Positions 12,940 to 44,981 of a stretch of DNA of 46,828 nt are shown here, piece after piece. Source of the stretch: Chitinispirillales bacterium (GTDB taxonomy: Bacteria; Fibrobacterota; Chitinivibrionia; Chitinivibrionales; Chitinispirillaceae); the NCBI GenBank assembly GCA_031286265.1, contig JAITUP010000159.1, positions 1 through 46,828 of the forward strand, written 5' to 3'. Numbering within the stretch: the stretch's first letter is position 1; every line of letters starts with the position of its first letter. A program made the translations under genes and the position numbers. The notes under the pieces were generated by a model that saw only the letters and a program-made list of their open reading frames with translations, had not been told where the DNA came from and searched no databases.

Positions 12940-14619
<1,680 letters not shown>

Positions 14620-14695
14620 TGAAGCAAGGAGATTTTAATGTTTTAATTTTTAAAAAAAATTAACGTTTTTTTTAAAAAAATGCTTTTCGTGTTGC

Positions 14696-14739
14696 CGGAA
14701 GTCTATATTGAGTATTTGACATTTCAATATAGACTTCCG
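14696..14739. repeat. Perfect 15-base inverted repeat at the repeat A / S-element junction
   Basis: CGGAAGTCTATATTG (14696-14710) and its exact complement (14725-14739) enclose a 14-base loop. No T-tract follows. The hairpin sits exactly where repeat A ends and the FISUMP-type 3' flank begins, so it may be a scar of the rearrangement or a transcript-end structure. Confidence 0.7.
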
Positions 14740-14830: not shown

Positions 14831-14958
14831 TTGCTGAAGAAAAGAATTAGGTAGTTAGGTAGTGCGACAATGTAAATTTTGTCGTTGGTATTACAAATTT
14901 TAAAACTGAACTTAAAAATTTTACATTCTATTCAAAAAATATTAAGGAGGTAGTAAAA

Positions 14959-15852
14959 ATGAATATTTGGAGGATTAACCTGAAGCCTGATGCAAAAAAA
15001 AATGTTGATTCTCATCAGTTTTGTATGGAAAATAAGATAGTTGGCATCGGTTGGCCAGTTGCTAATGTATTGGCTCCTGTATCGTGGAAAAAATACTTGG
15101 AGGCTGCGGAAGAACAATACAAAGGAGATGGGCATAAAGGTTGGAGGAAAGCCATAAATATAATGAAAAATCGCATGTATAAAGATGACCTTATTTGGAC
15201 GCGGGATAGTAAAGGTATTTATTCTTTGGGGCGCATAATGAGCGATTGGTGCTATGACGGGTCGAATAGTTACCTCGATGCCGACATTGTAAATTTCCGT
15301 GAATGTGAATGGTATAAAATCGGGACAGTTGATGCAATACCTGGAAAAATTGTAAACAGTTTCATACCACCTGCGACAGTTCAGCAGGTTCGTAGCAGTG
15401 CTGTAATGATATTCTCTCAACTAATTTACAATGAAAAAAATAAAAGTAACTTTTACAAAGTCGATAAATTATCGAGTAAAAACATTTTTGATTTATTGTC
15501 ACCGGATGATTGTGAGGATGTTTTGGCAATTTATCTGCAAGAAAAATACAACTATTACTTGATTCCGAGTTCGTGTAAAAAAACTACTCCAGCTTACGAA
15601 TATACCTTAATAAACGCAAAAACCAATAAATGTGCAATCGCTCAAGTCAGAAGTGGAAATGAGTCTTTGAATATTGACGGCTATTCCAAATATGATACGA
15701 GGGTTTATTTATTTGCAACCAGCGGGAATTATCTTGGTCAGCCAAAGGCGAATATCACAACTGTGGAGCCAGAAGAGATACGGAAATTTTTATACGAGTA
15801 TACTCATCTTCTTCCGAAAAAAATGAAAGTTTGGGTTAATATGAGCCGATAG
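14959..15852 (+). CDS. Putative modification-dependent nuclease: EVE-like N-terminus plus PD-(D/E)XK-like C-terminus
   Basis: 297 residues preceded by a strong AAGGAGGTAG. Residues about 1-140 look like an EVE/PUA-like reader: MNIWRINLKP, IVGIGWPV, DLIWTRDSKGIYSLGRI, and ADIVNFRECEWYKIGTVDAIPG arranged as in EVE-type domains. Residues about 170-270 resemble a restriction-endonuclease core: DCEDVLAIYLQEKY, YYLIPSSCKKTTPAYEYTLI, CAIAQVRSG, where the usual Lys of the QVKSG motif is Arg. Such reader-nuclease fusions cut modified foreign DNA (type IV restriction); this role is inferred. The gene is AT-rich and lies between the two copies of the ettA repeat, which suggests acquisition. The Arg in the catalytic motif could affect activity. 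Confidence 0.6.
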   Translation: MNIWRINLKPDAKKNVDSHQFCMENKIVGIGWPVANVLAPVSWKKYLEAAEEQYKGDGHKGWRKAINIMKNRMYKDDLIWTRDSKGIYSLGRIMSDWCYDGSNSYLDADIVNFRECEWYKIGTVDAIPGKIVNSFIPPATVQQVRSSAVMIFSQLIYNEKNKSNFYKVDKLSSKNIFDLLSPDDCEDVLAIYLQEKYNYYLIPSSCKKTTPAYEYTLINAKTNKCAIAQVRSGNESLNIDGYSKYDTRVYLFATSGNYLGQPKANITTVEPEEIRKFLYEYTHLLPKKMKVWVNMSR

Positions 15853-15945
15853 AAAAGAAGAGATAAGAGAAATATTTTATTTTTAATTTTTGCAGGGTGG
15901 AAATTAAGAGCGGCTTCATTTTTGCATAAACTCGCTTCGATCCAT

Positions 15946-15985
15946 CAACCCGGGAGGGTTCCTCACGGTCCTCCCACCTAGGTTG
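15946..15985. repeat. H-hairpin copy 1 (loop CTCACGGT)
   Basis: Stem GGGAGG/CCTCCC (15952-15957, 15970-15975) with loop GTTCCTCACGGT, plus an outer CAACC/GGTTG pair. Related hairpins are at 17083-17112 and 23465-23494. Bases 15853-15945 hold nothing else I recognise. Confidence 0.65.
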
Positions 15986-16015
15986 TCATCCGTTCGTTGT
16001 TTTTCGTCTACCTCA

Positions 16016-16174
16016 TCAATACTCGTTGAAAATTAAGTTCAGTCCGAATTTTTTGTAATATGGAAACACTTTATCGCTACTCACGAGCGTAATTTTTTCT
16101 GTTATTGCTTGCGCTATAATCATTCTATCACTTGGGTCTTTGTGGTTGTAACGGCTAAAAACCGCATTAAACCA
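16016..16174 (-). pseudogene. C-terminal remnant of a VapC-like PIN-domain toxin
   Basis: Reading the reverse strand from 16174 to the TGA at 16018-16016 gives 52 residues including HKDPSDRMIIAQAITE and ITLVSSDKVFPYYKKFG. The H-x-DP-x-DR-x-x-IAQA pattern is characteristic of the C-terminal half of PIN-domain VapC toxins. The frame is closed by a stop just upstream of the Trp at 16174 and no start or N-terminal half (with its first catalytic Asp) exists. The break lies next to the shared leader repeat at 16183, so that repeat's arrival may have destroyed the gene. No cognate antitoxin is visible for it. Confidence 0.7.
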
Positions 16175-16182
16175 TCAATCCT

Positions 16183-16290
16183 GGAATGGATTTTCGCGCT
16201 TTTCTCCGTTCCCGTTCGTTGGCCTCAAAATTTTCCACCGATTTCATGTTTTTTATTTTTATCTTTGGCATACATTATATTATATTATTA
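16183..16290 (+). promoter_or_regulatory. Shared leader repeat P, copy 1
   Basis: Matches 18969-19074 closely, and its second half (TTTCATGTTTTTTATTTTTA, then TCTTTGGC) matches 17411-17482 and 23501-23590. It contains TTTGGC-N6-TATATT with TATATT at 16276-16281 and stands before the UPF0175 gene, so it probably carries its promoter. Confidence 0.7.
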
Positions 16291-19415: not shown

Positions 19416-19536
19416 GATCAACCTCAACGTATAAAATATAAGCCGCTTCAACGGTAGTGAAGCAAGGAGATTTTAATATTAAAATTTATAAAAAAAATTA
19501 ACGTTTTTTTTAAAAAAATGCTTTTCATGTTGCCGG
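19416..19536 (+). repeat. Long direct repeat A, copy 2 (orphan 3' end of ettA)
   Basis: Duplicate of 14578-14698, including the last 42 bases of the ettA reading frame and its stop, but with no ettA in front of it. The first 62 bases are identical to copy 1. Confidence 0.92.
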
Positions 19537-19569
19537 TAATTTATATTGACGTTGATGTTAGGCTAATGA

Positions 19570-33654: not shown

Positions 33655-33740
33655 TATGCCTTCGTAATCGGAACCCATGATCCACACTCCGAGCCTTGTG
33701 GCGCTCCACTGAAAACCAACACCAACCAAGCCAAATCGGA
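33655..33740 (-). pseudogene. FISUMP gene fragment
   Basis: In one reverse frame this reads FGLVGVGFQWSATRLGVWIM followed by GSDYEGIA, matching AGFWWSATKLGVWIMGFDYN in the intact FISUMP protein encoded at 35883-36533. It is joined on one side to the start of the yhcG fragment and on the other to direct repeat B. Confidence 0.75.
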
Positions 33741-34018
33741 CTGGTGGTAGGAAACGCAACAACTACGGTATCAATCCGTTTTCTACCCCATTTCTTTGAA
33801 AACGAGATGTTGGCTCGTAACACTACGATAGCAGTAAGGCTCCAGTGGCTCCCCATAAACGAGGGCAAAATGCTAAAAATATCGCGTAAACTAAGCACCA
33901 AACCGGGCAGACCCGCTAAACTGGATAGCATCGCATATCGGTGACAGAGCAATTTTTTTAAAAAATTGATTTTCAAATAAAATTTATAGTATATTATAAA
34001 TATGCGACCACAAGGGCT
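33718..34018 (+). repeat. Long direct repeat B, copy 1
   Basis: About 300 bases repeated in the same orientation at 35467-35770 with high identity from CAATCCGTTTTCTACC to ATGCGACCACAAGGGCT; the first 50 bases are more diverged. No convincing gene inside. The end holds TATAGTATATTATAAATATG, a possible promoter and start codon; here 31 codons follow before a stop. Confidence 0.88.
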
Positions 34019-34565: not shown

Positions 34566-35501
34566 ATGAGGCCGAATTTTGAAAATTTCAAAATAATCGC
34601 ACAAGACTACGGTTTTGAAGAAACAATACCCGAAAAAGATTATTGGGTGATTTATCTTATAAAAAAAATGTCTGAGCTGTCTTTGCCAAATGGTTATCTT
34701 GTTTTCGGCGGTGGGACGAGCTTGGTCAAAGCGCATCGTGTAATAAAACGATTTAGTGAAGATATCGATTTTAGATTTATTACGGATATTTCACTTAACC
34801 GTTCCCAAAGAAGCAAGATAAAGCATATCATTACGGGTTACCTGAAAACATTAAATCCCCTTTTTCTTTTCGATGAACCTGAAGCCCACAACGAAAATAC
34901 ACTACTATTTTTTAAGCTGAATTATCCACGTGATGAACGATTTAACAAAAACAACGCCTTGCGTCCTTTTATCAAATTAGAAATATTTTTTTCTGATATA
35001 CATTACCCACCAATCAAATGTCCGCTTATATCATTTTATAACGAATATGAACACTTACAACCGGAAGTTGAATTTAATTGTGTGGCAATAGAGGACACGG
35101 CTATCGACAAGATTAGCTCGCTACTGTGGAGAATAGAGGTGGGCGAATACGAACCTACAGATATACGGCATTTGCACGATGTGGCAATGCTATGTGATAA
35201 AATAACAATTGATGATAAATTTAAGAAAACTTTAAATGTAGTATATAACAAAGATATTCGCACACGTGCTAAATCCGACAAAGAGCTAAAAGTATCAATA
35301 GACACCGTTACCACAAACCTTATGGAAAACAAGCGATATGCATATGATTACAAAAATTACGTATCTAACATGTCTTATGCCCCCGATTCGGATAATCTGT
35401 CTTTTGAGCAGGCACGAGACAAATTTGTACAACTCGCAGAAAAAATCGCTTTCGAACCTCCAAAAAACAACACCAGTCAAGCCAAACTTGGCCGGAGTTA
35501 G
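34566..35501 (+). CDS. AbiEii/AbiGii-family nucleotidyltransferase toxin
   Basis: 311 residues. The nucleotidyltransferase motif is VFGGGTSLVKAHRVIKRFSEDIDFRF, with the G-G-T-S and S-E-D-I-D residues that define AbiEii. EKDYWVIYLIKKM at the N-terminus and AIDKISSLLWRIEVGEYEPT, DIRHLHDVAML further on are standard. Such toxins modify tRNA or other RNA ends and give abortive phage defence. The last eleven residues (NNTSQAKLGRS) are encoded by the beginning of direct repeat B copy 2, so the native C-terminus may have been replaced. Confidence 0.9.
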   Translation: MRPNFENFKIIAQDYGFEETIPEKDYWVIYLIKKMSELSLPNGYLVFGGGTSLVKAHRVIKRFSEDIDFRFITDISLNRSQRSKIKHIITGYLKTLNPLFLFDEPEAHNENTLLFFKLNYPRDERFNKNNALRPFIKLEIFFSDIHYPPIKCPLISFYNEYEHLQPEVEFNCVAIEDTAIDKISSLLWRIEVGEYEPTDIRHLHDVAMLCDKITIDDKFKKTLNVVYNKDIRTRAKSDKELKVSIDTVTTNLMENKRYAYDYKNYVSNMSYAPDSDNLSFEQARDKFVQLAEKIAFEPPKNNTSQAKLGRS

Positions 35502-35770
35502 AAAGCGCAACAAACACGACACCAATCCGTTTTCTACCTCATTTCTTTGAAGACGGGATGTTGGCTCGTAACACTACGATAGCAGTAAGACTCCAGTGGC
35601 TCCCCATAAACGAGGGCAAAATGCTAAAAATATCGCGTAAACTAAGCACCAAGCCGGGCAGACCCGCTAAACTGGATAGCATCGCATATCGGTGACAGAG
35701 TAATTTTTTAAAAAAATTGATTTTCAAATAAAATTTATAGTATATTATAAATATGCGACCACAAGGGCTG
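35467..35770 (+). repeat. Long direct repeat B, copy 2
   Basis: Second copy of 33718-34018. It begins inside the 3' end of the AbiEii gene and ends with ATGCGACCACAAGGGCT, after which it is fused to an Rpn gene fragment. Confidence 0.88.
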
Positions 35771-40496: not shown

Positions 40497-40811
40497 TTAC
40501 TCCGGGATTAACTCTTCATCTAAGTCTCTGAATAGTAGCGTACCTACAAAACCGCTATCTGATACTGTGGTCGTGTCAATTTGAAAAAGTGTGTTGTCGA
40601 GTATACCTTCCTCGAAAACTAAGACATCGTGGCCATCTTCTGTTCTGCCAACGCTACCTTCTCGTGTTATCGCGTTATCTCGCGGCCTTATTTCATCAGG
40701 GCCTACATTATCGACACAACCGACGACAATCCCGGCCATTATGGCTACTGCACAAAAAAACGCCCACTTTTTCGTAGCTAACAAATCATTAAACAATAGC
40801 TTATAATTCAT
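40497..40811 (-). CDS. Lipoprotein N-terminal part, probably the 5' end of the frameshifted surface protein gene
   Basis: 104 residues. A signal peptide with lipobox IVVGC (Cys near 32) is followed by a polar region ending FRDLDEELIPE. The stop at 40499-40497 lies inside the region where the next frame (down to 37886) becomes open at 40507, and the sequence across the junction continues as one secreted-protein-like chain. It is therefore best read as the first part of the large repeat protein, separated by a one-base change. If it is a real separate gene it is a small lipoprotein of unknown role. Confidence 0.65.
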   Translation of the reverse strand: MNYKLLFNDLLATKKWAFFCAVAIMAGIVVGCVDNVGPDEIRPRDNAITREGSVGRTEDGHDVLVFEEGILDNTLFQIDTTTVSDSGFVGTLLFRDLDEELIPE

Positions 40812-40885: not shown

Positions 40886-41052
40886 CAATATAAATCACCG
40901 GCATCACAAAAAACAAATGTTTTTCAAAAATATTTTAACCCTGATCTTGATTTTAAACAATCGATAAATTATATTCGCTCTATCCCCTGCTCCCTTCACC
41001 GGGTTACAGAGTTTAAAAAATAACAAACACGGAGTGAAAAAATGCGTTTACA
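40886..41052 (+). repeat. Long direct repeat C, copy 1 (orphan leader and start codon of the glycoside hydrolase gene)
   Basis: 167 bases nearly identical to 42048-42214 (offset 1162), from CAATATAAATCACCGGC to ATGCGTTTACA. Only a few bases differ. This copy has the start codon at 41042 but then runs into the inserted cassette. Confidence 0.93.
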
Positions 41053-41056
41053 ATAG

Positions 41057-41467
41057 TCACGGGTATTTTTTCTTTATTTTCTTGCATTCAACCTCTACAT
41101 CATCAAGCTTCCTTTGCGCCCATTCTTTGGTAAATTTAGTTGTATCGTATTCATTATATTTGGCAGCTCTAGTAATCTTGTAAAGCTCTGAGTATGGCTT
41201 ATATATATCAACAAATACTATATCTATCATGGCCCTCAGCCTTTCGCCATGATCGTAGTAATTTTCACAAAAGAAAGCCTTTTTTCTGTTTCTGTTGATT
41301 TTAGGTACCACTAACGGCAAAATTGCCTCAAAATAATGCAAGGCAGTATAATACGAAACAGTGACATATCAGTCTCTAAAATGACTTTCTTTGTCGTAGG
41401 AATTTATAAATTCAAGCATTTTACGGTTGTGTTTAGCCTGTATTTCATGTCGATTTTGTAATGGCAT
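41057..41467 (-). pseudogene. HEPN-like protein gene with an in-frame TGA
   Basis: From ATG 41467 (sharing one base with the stop of the upstream gene) the frame reads MPLQNRHEIQAKHNRKMLEF, ESHFRD, then TGA at 41371-41369, then YVTVSYYTALHYFEAILPLV to a stop at 41057. The joined sequence RD-x-YVTVSYYTALHYFEA matches HEPN-type proteins, where this position is usually Trp (WAVTxxFYxALHY); a TGG to TGA change explains it. HGERLRAM and YSELYKITRAAKY fit the later helices. It would be 136 residues with the stop read through. Most likely a nonsense mutation; translation from an internal start would make only the C-terminal 94 residues. Confidence 0.7.
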
Positions 41468-41958
41468 TATATATTCACCTTGTGGCATGGGAAGTCGTGA
41501 TTTATTAGATGCTGATCAAGTTTATGATCTGTAATAACCCAAAAAGCGCAAAAGTAGCCATTTTTTTTGAAAATATTTATTTCAAGCTCTGCCGCCATTT
41601 GCATTATTTGGGGCATATCGCTTTCATATTTATGCGATATTACCGTAAGCGTGGCTGGCGCCTTAGTTGTATAGTCCAAACCTATTCTGTGCTGAAGTAT
41701 GCAATTTTTAGGGACGAAGTGCAAAAGTTCTCTGTAAAATTCTTCGGCTGGGTCTATCATTTCAATAATTAAATCTTTTGCTGTCTTACCTGTAACCTTT
41801 TTAATAGCTTTCAGGACGGATTTGATGGCGTCTCTCTTGTCGGCATCGTAGTCCATTTCATATTCACGTCCTGAGCCGATACTAATTTCATCCAACATCT
41901 TGATAATGTCACTGTCAACTGCAACGGATGCAGATTTAGCTGTTTCCAGGCTTACCAT
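41467..41958 (-). CDS. Protein of unknown function, partner of the HEPN-like gene
   Basis: 163 residues from ATG 41958 (AAGGAA upstream); an ATG at 41991 would add 11. The N-terminal half is helical (SDIIKMLDEISIGSG, KRDAIKSVLKAIKKVTG) and the C-terminal half looks alpha/beta with LTVISHKYESDMPQIMQMAA and YFCAFWVITDHKL. I do not recognise the family. It overlaps the HEPN-like gene (TAATG), and both are strongly AT-rich and lie between the copies of direct repeat C, which suggests a two-gene toxin-antitoxin or defence cassette. Confidence 0.65.
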   Translation of the reverse strand: MVSLETAKSASVAVDSDIIKMLDEISIGSGREYEMDYDADKRDAIKSVLKAIKKVTGKTAKDLIIEMIDPAEEFYRELLHFVPKNCILQHRIGLDYTTKAPATLTVISHKYESDMPQIMQMAAELEINIFKKNGYFCAFWVITDHKLDQHLINHDFPCHKVNI

Positions 41959-42047
41959 CTCCAATGTATTCCTTTTTGTTGACGCGTACATGGCTACATA
42001 ATAGCCAAGCCGCTATTAATGTAACGAGGTCACACCCATCACACATA

Positions 42048-42214
42048 CAATATAAATCACCGGCATCACAAAAAACAAATGTTTTTCAAAAATATTTTAA
42101 CCCTGACCTTGATTTTAAACAATCGATAAATTATATTCGCTTTATCCCCTGCTCCCTTCACCGGGTTACAGAGTTTAAAAAACAACAAACACGGAGTGAA
42201 AAAATGCGTTTACA
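42048..42214 (+). repeat. Long direct repeat C, copy 2 (functional leader of the glycoside hydrolase gene)
   Basis: Copy attached to the glycoside hydrolase gene; includes its ribosome binding site (CGGAGTGA) and first four codons. Confidence 0.93.
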
Positions 42215-44981
42215 TTTCCCCTTGAAAATTTTATTATCCACGCTGATCCTATCAAGCATTTGCCTTGCGGGCAGCCCTCTTTCCCCCGTCGACAGCGCCG
42301 GAAATGTCGTTACCAACTTCTCTTTCGAGGAGGGTGGAAGCGGCTGGAACATCTGGGGCGGCGGCGTTTCCGATGTCGCGCGTAGCGGCCGAGCCGGGCT
42401 TACTATCCGCAATGAGGAGCCCAAATGGAGCGGCGCCGAGCAGATGATTGTGCTGCCCGATGGTGCGGCTCACGTTACGGTTTCGGGGTGGATAAAGACA
42501 GACGATGTGGTACAAGGCAGGGAAAACTGGGAAATGGCGCGCATATCGGTCGAATTTCGTGATGAGCGCGGTAACCTTATAGGCGGCTACCCGCCGCCGG
42601 TGGGGCAGATTGCCGGAACTACAGACTGGACGCACTATACCAATACCTACAGGGTATCGACCGCCGCTCGCACCGTTACGCTTCAGTGCGCTTTGGGGAA
42701 CGCGACGGGAGCCGCGCACTTTGACGACATTACAATCACGATACGCAACCGCGCGGGGGAGTTGCTCGAGGCGGGGCGGCTTTCTGGTATTATGGACGAG
42801 GGCGAGTGGTATGCGCTTCCCGTCAGGCAAGCTTCGAGGGGCGGGCACTATGTTGATTGGTCGAGGCTTTTGGACGCGCCGGCTGGCAAGCACGGTTTTT
42901 TGCAGGTTAGAGACGGGCGGCTGGTGTTTGAAAACGGCACGCCCGCACGATTTTGGGGGACGAACCTTGTGGCGAACGATAATTTCGCCGCCGATTCGCT
43001 GATTGACTCCCTTGTTACGCGTCTTGCGAAGATGGGTGTCAATATGTTGCGTTTGCATCACTTGGACGCCCCCTGGACAGCGCCGAACATTTTCGGCAAC
43101 ACTCCCGGCACACGCGAGCTTTCAAAGGAATCGATGCGGCAGCTTGATTATCTCATATACCGCTGTAAGCAAAAAGGCATATACATTTTTCTGGATCTCC
43201 TCGTCCACCGCGATTTCACCGAGGCCGACGGCATAGAAAACCGTCCGCCCGACCTTGGGGGTAAGCAGATAGGCTTCTTCTATGAAAAAATCATTGAACT
43301 CCAAAAAGAATTCAACGAAAACCTGCTAAACCATGTCAATCAATTTACCGGTGTGGCTTATAAGGACGAACCGGCAATAGCGTTATCGGCGTTTATCAAC
43401 GAATCGACAATCTTCGGCGCGTTTTCGAGCGATATTCTTACCCCGTACTATCGTCAGGTACTAAACGATATATGGTCCCGGCGCGACAGGCCGCGGCAGG
43501 GTATGCAGAACAATGATTGCGGTTGCGGCGGATACGCTCAAATTGATATGACGATTGATGGAAACGATATCGACACAGAAAATGAAAATGATATTGTGGC
43601 GGTGGATGATGAAGATGACATTGATACCGACGGCGGCCGTTATATCAATGCGGACAATGAAAGAGACATCGCGGGGGACGACGGAGTTGGTACGCTCGCG
43701 GTTTTTAGTCTCGACTGGCAGAATGACAGACCGCGGCTCAGGCTCGCGTCGGCCGAGGGCGATATTGAAGAAAGTATCCAATTTTTGTCAGAGTTGGAAG
43801 CCGGCTATTTTAAGAGGATGGAAGAACATCTTCGCGGCGTCGGCGTTCGCTATCCGCTTGCGGGGAGCAACATGCCGCTGCCGCTTTTGGCTACGCTACG
43901 GAACAACACCGCGCTCGACATCATCATTCAAAACGACTACTGGGACCATCCGCAGGTATGGAAAATCGACAACGACTGGGACAACATCCTCACCGCGCCG
44001 TTTCACAATCGTTCACAGCTCAGAAACCCGGGAGCGAGTGCAATTCAAAACAAATCATACTATCGCGTAGATGGCATGCCGTTTCTAATAACCGAGTGGA
44101 ATCACTGCTATCCGAATGAACACGTCCTTGAGGGCGTTCCGCTAATGGCCGCGTACGGTGCGCTACAGGGTTGGGACGGTATACTGCAGTTTGACGCGAA
44201 TCACCACGTGTTAGGCAAAGACCGCATACGTAGCTACACGCTTTCCGTTCAGCCGGAGGACGTGGCATTGTGGGTAATGGCCGCGCCACTGTTTTTGAGA
44301 GGCGATGTACAAGCCGCGCCGGGGCTTGTCATAGAGGGTATTAGCGAAGAGCAATACGGCAATATTCCGAGCTATTCAGACATGCTCGAAAGAAATTATC
44401 ACCTGCCCTTCATCACAAGGGTAGCGAAGCGTTTCGATGCCCCATCAAGCGGGAGCATCGAGCATTACGCGCGATATTATTCCAGAGAAGACGGCGTAAC
44501 CCGCTCCGAAACCGGCGAGCTTGCAATTAATAGTAAGGTAGGGTATATGCGCATAGAAACTCCGCGCATACAGGGCGCAAACGGCTTCATCGGCGGTGTC
44601 GAACTCAACTTCCCGCTCTTTTCGACATCAATATCAAACAGCCACGCGGCAATCTACGCGGTATCCGCCGACGGTGAAGATTTGATTTCATCAAAACGTT
44701 TTTACCTCGTAGTGACAGGCCCCGCCAAAATGAGAGGCCAAGTCTATGACCCGGTCAGAAACCTGTTAGAAAGCGCGGGTGAAGGCGAAGTTCTTACGCA
44801 GGTTGTTGACGGTATGGTAGTTTTCAATCAGTTGGGCGGGAAAAAATTACAGATCTTCCCGCTCGAAATGAACGGCCGCCGCGGAAAAAAAATGTCGTTA
44901 AGAAGGGTCAGAGGTTCATCGCACAGAGCCCTCGATCTGAGCAGAGGCAGAACGTTGGTTTATGAAGTGGTGCTGAAGTAA
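42204..44981 (+). CDS. Secreted glycoside hydrolase of clan A type with N-terminal carbohydrate-binding module
   Basis: 925 residues from ATG 42204. The signal peptide is LKILLSTLILSSICLAG. Residues about 30-175 resemble a CBM4/9-type module (VVTNFSFEEGGSGWNIWGGG, GWIKTDD, AHFDDITITI). The catalytic TIM barrel starts with RFWGTNLVANDNFA and MGVNMLRLHHLDAPW; the probable acid/base Glu is E400 in AFINES and the nucleophile E631 in LITEWNHCYPNE, as in GH5-like enzymes. Between them, residues about 430-495 form an odd acidic insert rich in Asp-Ile pairs (IDGNDIDTENENDIVAV). A C-terminal beta region follows. It probably attacks plant polysaccharide outside the cell. No typical type IX sorting domain is visible. 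The leader is duplicated 1.2 kb upstream. Confidence 0.83.
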   Translation: MRLHFPLKILLSTLILSSICLAGSPLSPVDSAGNVVTNFSFEEGGSGWNIWGGGVSDVARSGRAGLTIRNEEPKWSGAEQMIVLPDGAAHVTVSGWIKTDDVVQGRENWEMARISVEFRDERGNLIGGYPPPVGQIAGTTDWTHYTNTYRVSTAARTVTLQCALGNATGAAHFDDITITIRNRAGELLEAGRLSGIMDEGEWYALPVRQASRGGHYVDWSRLLDAPAGKHGFLQVRDGRLVFENGTPARFWGTNLVANDNFAADSLIDSLVTRLAKMGVNMLRLHHLDAPWTAPNIFGNTPGTRELSKESMRQLDYLIYRCKQKGIYIFLDLLVHRDFTEADGIENRPPDLGGKQIGFFYEKIIELQKEFNENLLNHVNQFTGVAYKDEPAIALSAFINESTIFGAFSSDILTPYYRQVLNDIWSRRDRPRQGMQNNDCGCGGYAQIDMTIDGNDIDTENENDIVAVDDEDDIDTDGGRYINADNERDIAGDDGVGTLAVFSLDWQNDRPRLRLASAEGDIEESIQFLSELEAGYFKRMEEHLRGVGVRYPLAGSNMPLPLLATLRNNTALDIIIQNDYWDHPQVWKIDNDWDNILTAPFHNRSQLRNPGASAIQNKSYYRVDGMPFLITEWNHCYPNEHVLEGVPLMAAYGALQGWDGILQFDANHHVLGKDRIRSYTLSVQPEDVALWVMAAPLFLRGDVQAAPGLVIEGISEEQYGNIPSYSDMLERNYHLPFITRVAKRFDAPSSGSIEHYARYYSREDGVTRSETGELAINSKVGYMRIETPRIQGANGFIGGVELNFPLFSTSISNSHAAIYAVSADGEDLISSKRFYLVVTGPAKMRGQVYDPVRNLLESAGEGEVLTQVVDGMVVFNQLGGKKLQIFPLEMNGRRGKKMSLRRVRGSSHRALDLSRGRTLVYEVVLK

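Follow-up and report, generated by a model that had tools for sequence, protein, structure and literature searches.

A small two-gene cassette with a candidate HEPN-fold protein lies between long direct repeats of a glycoside hydrolase leader in a Fibrobacterota genome

Introduction

Some restriction-modification (RM) systems insert with long and variable target duplications, in the order of 100 bp (PMC3874152, PMC1643837, PMC3031569), a mode described for RM units as insertion with long target duplication and attributed to Nobusato et al. 2000 and Furuta et al. 2010 in passages of these same three sources. Such cases involve small, self-contained units that carry RM genes, flanked by host direct repeats of that order and devoid of a transposase, and they were recognized by comparing paired strains, one carrying the insert and the other lacking it. 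Some site-specific integrative elements, for their part, carry a replacement gene end, and their target gene retains an intact copy of the part that is duplicated, as in the arrangement described below; however, the cassette studied here has no recombinase gene, and its 167-bp repeat covers a promoter and a start only. Regarding gene content, the nearest described counterparts are the HEPN-MNT (HepT/MntA) type VII systems, whose defining motifs are RX4-6H (RX4HXY) and GSX10DXD (PMC7641770).

In this work, we analyzed a 46,828-nucleotide window from a Chitinispirillales bacterium (contig C70 of a draft genome of 2.6 Mb in 278 contigs), in which two short reverse-strand genes lie between two copies of the leader of a glycoside hydrolase (GH) gene. 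The locus shares with the RM units the host direct repeat of at least about 100 bp and the lack of a transposase and of terminal inverted repeats, and it differs from them in its cargo, an unnamed gene pair set in a divergent promoter region.

Results

The direct repeat and its signals

The repeat spans 167 nt, and its two copies display 98.2% identity, with three mismatches (positions 40945, 40980 and 41021 in copy 1) and an offset of 1162 nt from start to start (Table 1). A first-pass annotation of this DNA had recognized a leader duplication with this offset and an orphan start upstream, and both are borne out; it had also counted four duplicated GH codons along with the leader and the ribosome binding site, of which the repeat holds three whole codons and two bases (ATG CGT TTA CA). 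The ends of the repeat are sharp on both sides and each copy retains its own outer flank: anchored extension scored 1 at the left boundary (p 0.60 vs shuffles) and 0 at the right one (p 1.0 vs shuffles), the flanks being unrelated in both cases. A leftward extension of the duplication through a similarity at CCCATCAC was considered and rejected, as this similarity was not significant by anchored extension. In a whole-genome search, copy 2 was matched with an E-value of 8.8e-79, and these two were the only full copies found, together with one partial match of 45 bases; further, among the local direct repeats of at least 60 bp in the 765 kb of genome surveyed, this pair showed the highest identity.

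Table 1. Coordinates of the repeat-flanked cassette, its candidate signals and the neighbouring genes in the window
Feature	Position	Strand	Remarks
Leftward neighbour gene	40497..40811	-	104 aa with a lipoprotein-like signal; no match in Pfam
Repeat copy 1	40886..41052	+	GH leader, candidate promoter, ribosome binding site and initial 11 nt of the GH coding sequence; reads MRLQ-stop (orphan start)
Promoter-like motif GTGATGCCGGTGATTTATATTG, copy 1	40886..40907	-	Faces leftward gene, ATG 74 nt away
Sigma-70-like promoter candidate TTGATT-17-TATATT, copy 1	40947..40975	+	Consensus match only
HEPN-fold gene	41057..41467	-	136 codons + stop, interrupted by in-frame TGA
In-frame TGA, codon 33 of HEPN-fold gene	41369..41371	-	Tryptophan in seven other aligned members
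Partner gene	41467..41958	-	Intact; likely ATG at 41958, ORF extends to 41991
Promoter candidate of the cassette, GTTACA-16-TATTAT	41998..42025	-	Consensus match only
Repeat copy 2	42048..42214	+	Continuous with intact GH gene
Promoter-like motif, copy 2	42048..42069	-	Faces partner gene
Sigma-70-like promoter candidate TTGATT-17-TATATT, copy 2, for GH gene	42109..42137	+	Consensus match only
GH gene	42204..44981	+	925 aa, CBM_4_9 and GH5-like region

On the + strand, the sigma-70-like candidate within the repeat is followed by a GGAG ribosome site and then by the GH start; 11 promoter matches were found vs 6.0 expected (sd 2.6), and calls made by consensus matching are suggestive only. The first 22 bases of the repeat, read on the - strand, correspond to a dispersed promoter-like motif, about GTGTTGCCGATAATTTATATTG, which occurs at 23 places of the genome with at most three mismatches vs one for the reversed control; it may act as a promoter, with a long ORF lying downstream at only some of its places. 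Examples at C258:339-360, C123:274-295 and C166:401-422 display a T/A-rich run upstream. As for the GH protein, it matches Pfam CBM_4_9 (E 5.2e-10) and Cellulase (E 3.1e-4, below its cutoff), and its gene occurs once in the genome by protein search, with orthologues in the family that share about 65-75% identity and lie in other neighbourhoods.

The cassette and its two genes

The insert between the repeat copies measures 995 bp and has a GC content of 37% vs 46% for the window; it carries two overlapping - strand genes, in agreement with the AT-rich, two-gene reverse-strand cassette first described. The stop of the first gene, here called the partner, overlaps the start of the second, the HEPN-fold gene, as TAATG. 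These two are the only genes of the cassette in the ORF list, with no recombinase or transposase among them, and the search for terminal inverted repeats gave none (score 5, p 0.88). Neither protein belongs to a named family in Pfam, NCBIfam, PADLOC, PHROGs or the PDB sequences, apart from one weak hit in PADLOC, between the paralogous partner encoded elsewhere in this genome and PDC-M12A (E 0.0036); Rfam families were absent across the whole window.

A genome-wide reading of TGA as tryptophan was rejected, since 101 of the 324 long ORFs surveyed end in this codon, and TGA is taken to be an ordinary stop in this genome. Given that the interrupted position holds tryptophan in all seven other aligned members, the second protein of the pair has probably been lost from the window copy.

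The HEPN-type assignment originally proposed for the cassette is weakly supported at the level of the fold and not at that of the motif. An AlphaFold model of the intact paralogue of the HEPN-fold protein (pLDDT 66) displays four long helices and a hairpin, and HEPN proteins rank first in the Foldseek search with this model (2hsb, prob 0.93, E 0.2), with many HEPN entries among the top 30 and none significant by E-value. In the alignment of eight members, D32, W33, T36, Y40, E47, A48, H73 and R76 are invariant, and no conserved arginine lies 4-6 residues before a histidine; instead of RX4-6H, an HxxR motif is conserved, together with DW and EA. The partner alignments show an invariant R-x-G, P and DFP and contain neither GS nor DXD. 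Its predicted fold (helix, hairpin, helix, strand) found no convincing neighbour in the structure search, where the best hits did not include an MNT protein, and an MNT-like fold was rejected for this protein for want of a convincing structure match. The pair resembles HEPN-MNT systems in that two small genes lie next to each other, one of them encoding a probable HEPN fold, and in that it occurs both on chromosomes and on mobile DNA; however, given the lack of a conserved RX4-6H in one protein and of GSX10DXD in the partner, it falls outside HEPN-MNT as defined by those motifs.

Distribution of the gene pair

The pair was found at nine loci. Two of them, the window and a paralogous locus, belong to this genome, six lie in other Fibrobacterota genomes and the ninth is on a tailed-phage contig. 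An overlapping operon is formed at the own-genome paralogue (contig C258), in G002, twice in G010, twice in G065, in G114 and on the phage contig. The partner is present in 6 of the 168 genomes of the phylum that were searched, own included, some of them carrying it twice, and the HEPN-fold gene follows directly behind it each time, except for a fragment in G004. The paralogous pair on C258 is intact (L018 8985-9452 and 8582-9001) and has tryptophan at the TGA position. It forms part of an array of small reverse-strand genes (L018 7306-11217) beside a XerC-like recombinase fragment, in which several genes share near-identical upstream TTGACA/TATAAT regions (63-bp repeat).

At the phage locus (IMG/VR contig, L138 4887-5727), the pair has tail genes on one side and an antirepressor gene on the other, and the surroundings of the pair are unrelated from locus to locus, phage included. 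Relatives of the cassette in named records came from Chitinispirillales metagenome genomes; homologues on plasmids or deposited phages were not found, and a single-protein scan of genome contigs gave no match. None of the other pair loci tested, C258 among them, is flanked by a direct repeat of this kind.

Discussion

Origin of the arrangement

We consider insertion with a long target duplication of host DNA to be the best explanation of this locus, and a rather likely one. Under this reading, the leftward gene (start 40811) and the GH gene (start 42204) would have shared a divergent intergenic region that received the cassette, and 167 bp of this region would have been duplicated in the process; a possible route would be the capture of DNA at two nicks spaced by about 167 bp, with the ends filled in, and template switching at a replication fork would be an alternative one. 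The first-pass annotation took the arrival of the cassette together with the duplication as demonstrated; with sharp ends, separate outer flanks and no GH trace in the insert, this is the simplest reading. The related genomes yielded no uninterrupted single-leader site in the genus, because the leaders of the relatives do not align, their upstream neighbours being different as well, and from this it follows that the ancestral site, and duplication and insertion as a single event, are what we infer, in contrast to the RM cases. The HEPN-fold gene would have been lost later through its stop codon.

Decay of a tandem duplication, in which leader and GH gene were doubled and the upstream GH gene was then replaced by the cassette, leaving leader and start behind, was the scenario that the initial description itself named as contrary to an insertion, and it has a precedent in the same genome: at L102, a leader plus start is duplicated beside a decayed gene (14947-15160 and 15995-16202, 214 bp, 90%). 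We regard this scenario as unlikely for the cassette, whose sequence gave only noise-level matches to the GH protein over all frames (best tblastn E 0.039), with nothing that resembles the GH downstream sequence ahead of copy 2; the abrupt ends of the repeat and the single GH gene of the genome also speak against it. The L102 arrangement itself (14947-16266), where a small gene for a secreted protein has its leader and initial codons repeated 1 kb downstream and the second gene is truncated, is an ordinary decayed tandem copy and serves as a contrast case.

A cassette between direct repeats would equally be left by a circle carrying leader and cassette through a single crossover, or by a tyrosine recombinase acting in trans on a cis-mobilisable element with long att repeats, and the paralogous pair on C258 does adjoin the recombinase fragment mentioned above. 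Yet that pair has no such flanking repeat, the cassette carries neither a recombinase nor terminal inverted repeats, and no third full leader copy exists in the genome; moreover, the circle model shifts the question to the original joining of leader and cassette, and we hold this origin to be quite unlikely. Very unlikely is an assembly artefact fusing strain variants or distant loci through a repeat of about read length, an idea suggested by a draft of 278 contigs and a repeat length near that of short reads, given that three mismatches separate the copies, that both stop abruptly where unique sequence begins, and that the junction of copy 1 with the cassette was needed in reads for assembly.

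Consequences for the neighbouring genes

Returning to insertion with target duplication, neither neighbour appears to be cut. As first proposed, the GH gene has an intact leader, with the promoter-like match, ribosome site and start retained in copy 2; and since the repeat also carries the leftward promoter-like motif, which the left copy retains for the leftward gene, both neighbours are predicted to have kept their start signals. An insertion without harm, as the first description had it, may be read into this arrangement. For the cassette, the right copy would have supplied a possible second promoter; the promoter that points rightward in copy 1 would be expected to read antisense into the pair, and recombination between the two copies is predicted to excise the cassette precisely.

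Other repeat-flanked blocks

Further direct repeats were observed in this genome, and within the window they flank two more blocks of defence type. A 134-bp repeat (14578-14711 and 19416-19549, 94%), which comprises the final 13 codons of a gene of the ABC-F type and the region downstream, encloses 4.7 kb of AT-rich DNA that encodes a PDC-S02 candidate defence protein, an ATPase and a protein with DUF3368; target duplication may have accompanied a second insertion here. Around an AbiEi/AbiEii pair, a 308-bp repeat (33712-34018 and 35463-35769, 92.5%) starts with the last 13 AbiEii codons and looks like a tandem-duplication relic of this cassette. Outside the window, a 130-bp repeat with 88% identity (L064 8716-10839) surrounds a methylase-like gene of 30% GC located behind a repeat-rich surface-protein gene.

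Significance

The insertion mode considered here is already known and little documented, and its cargo at this locus is an unnamed gene pair in place of RM genes; the locus provides a clean, well-delimited insertion footprint in Fibrobacterota. Whether such insertions, whose duplication spares the neighbours, constitute a general transposase-free entry of small defence or toxin-antitoxin cassettes in this lineage is a proposal that we rate as improbable; if it were true, inserts would persist in divergent promoter regions because both neighbours are spared. The pair may function like a toxin-antitoxin, and a role of this type or in phage defence is likely. Taken together, partner and HEPN-fold gene constitute a conserved, unnamed two-gene module of Fibrobacterota and a tailed-phage contig, and this conservation makes the pair a candidate toxin-antitoxin or defence system.
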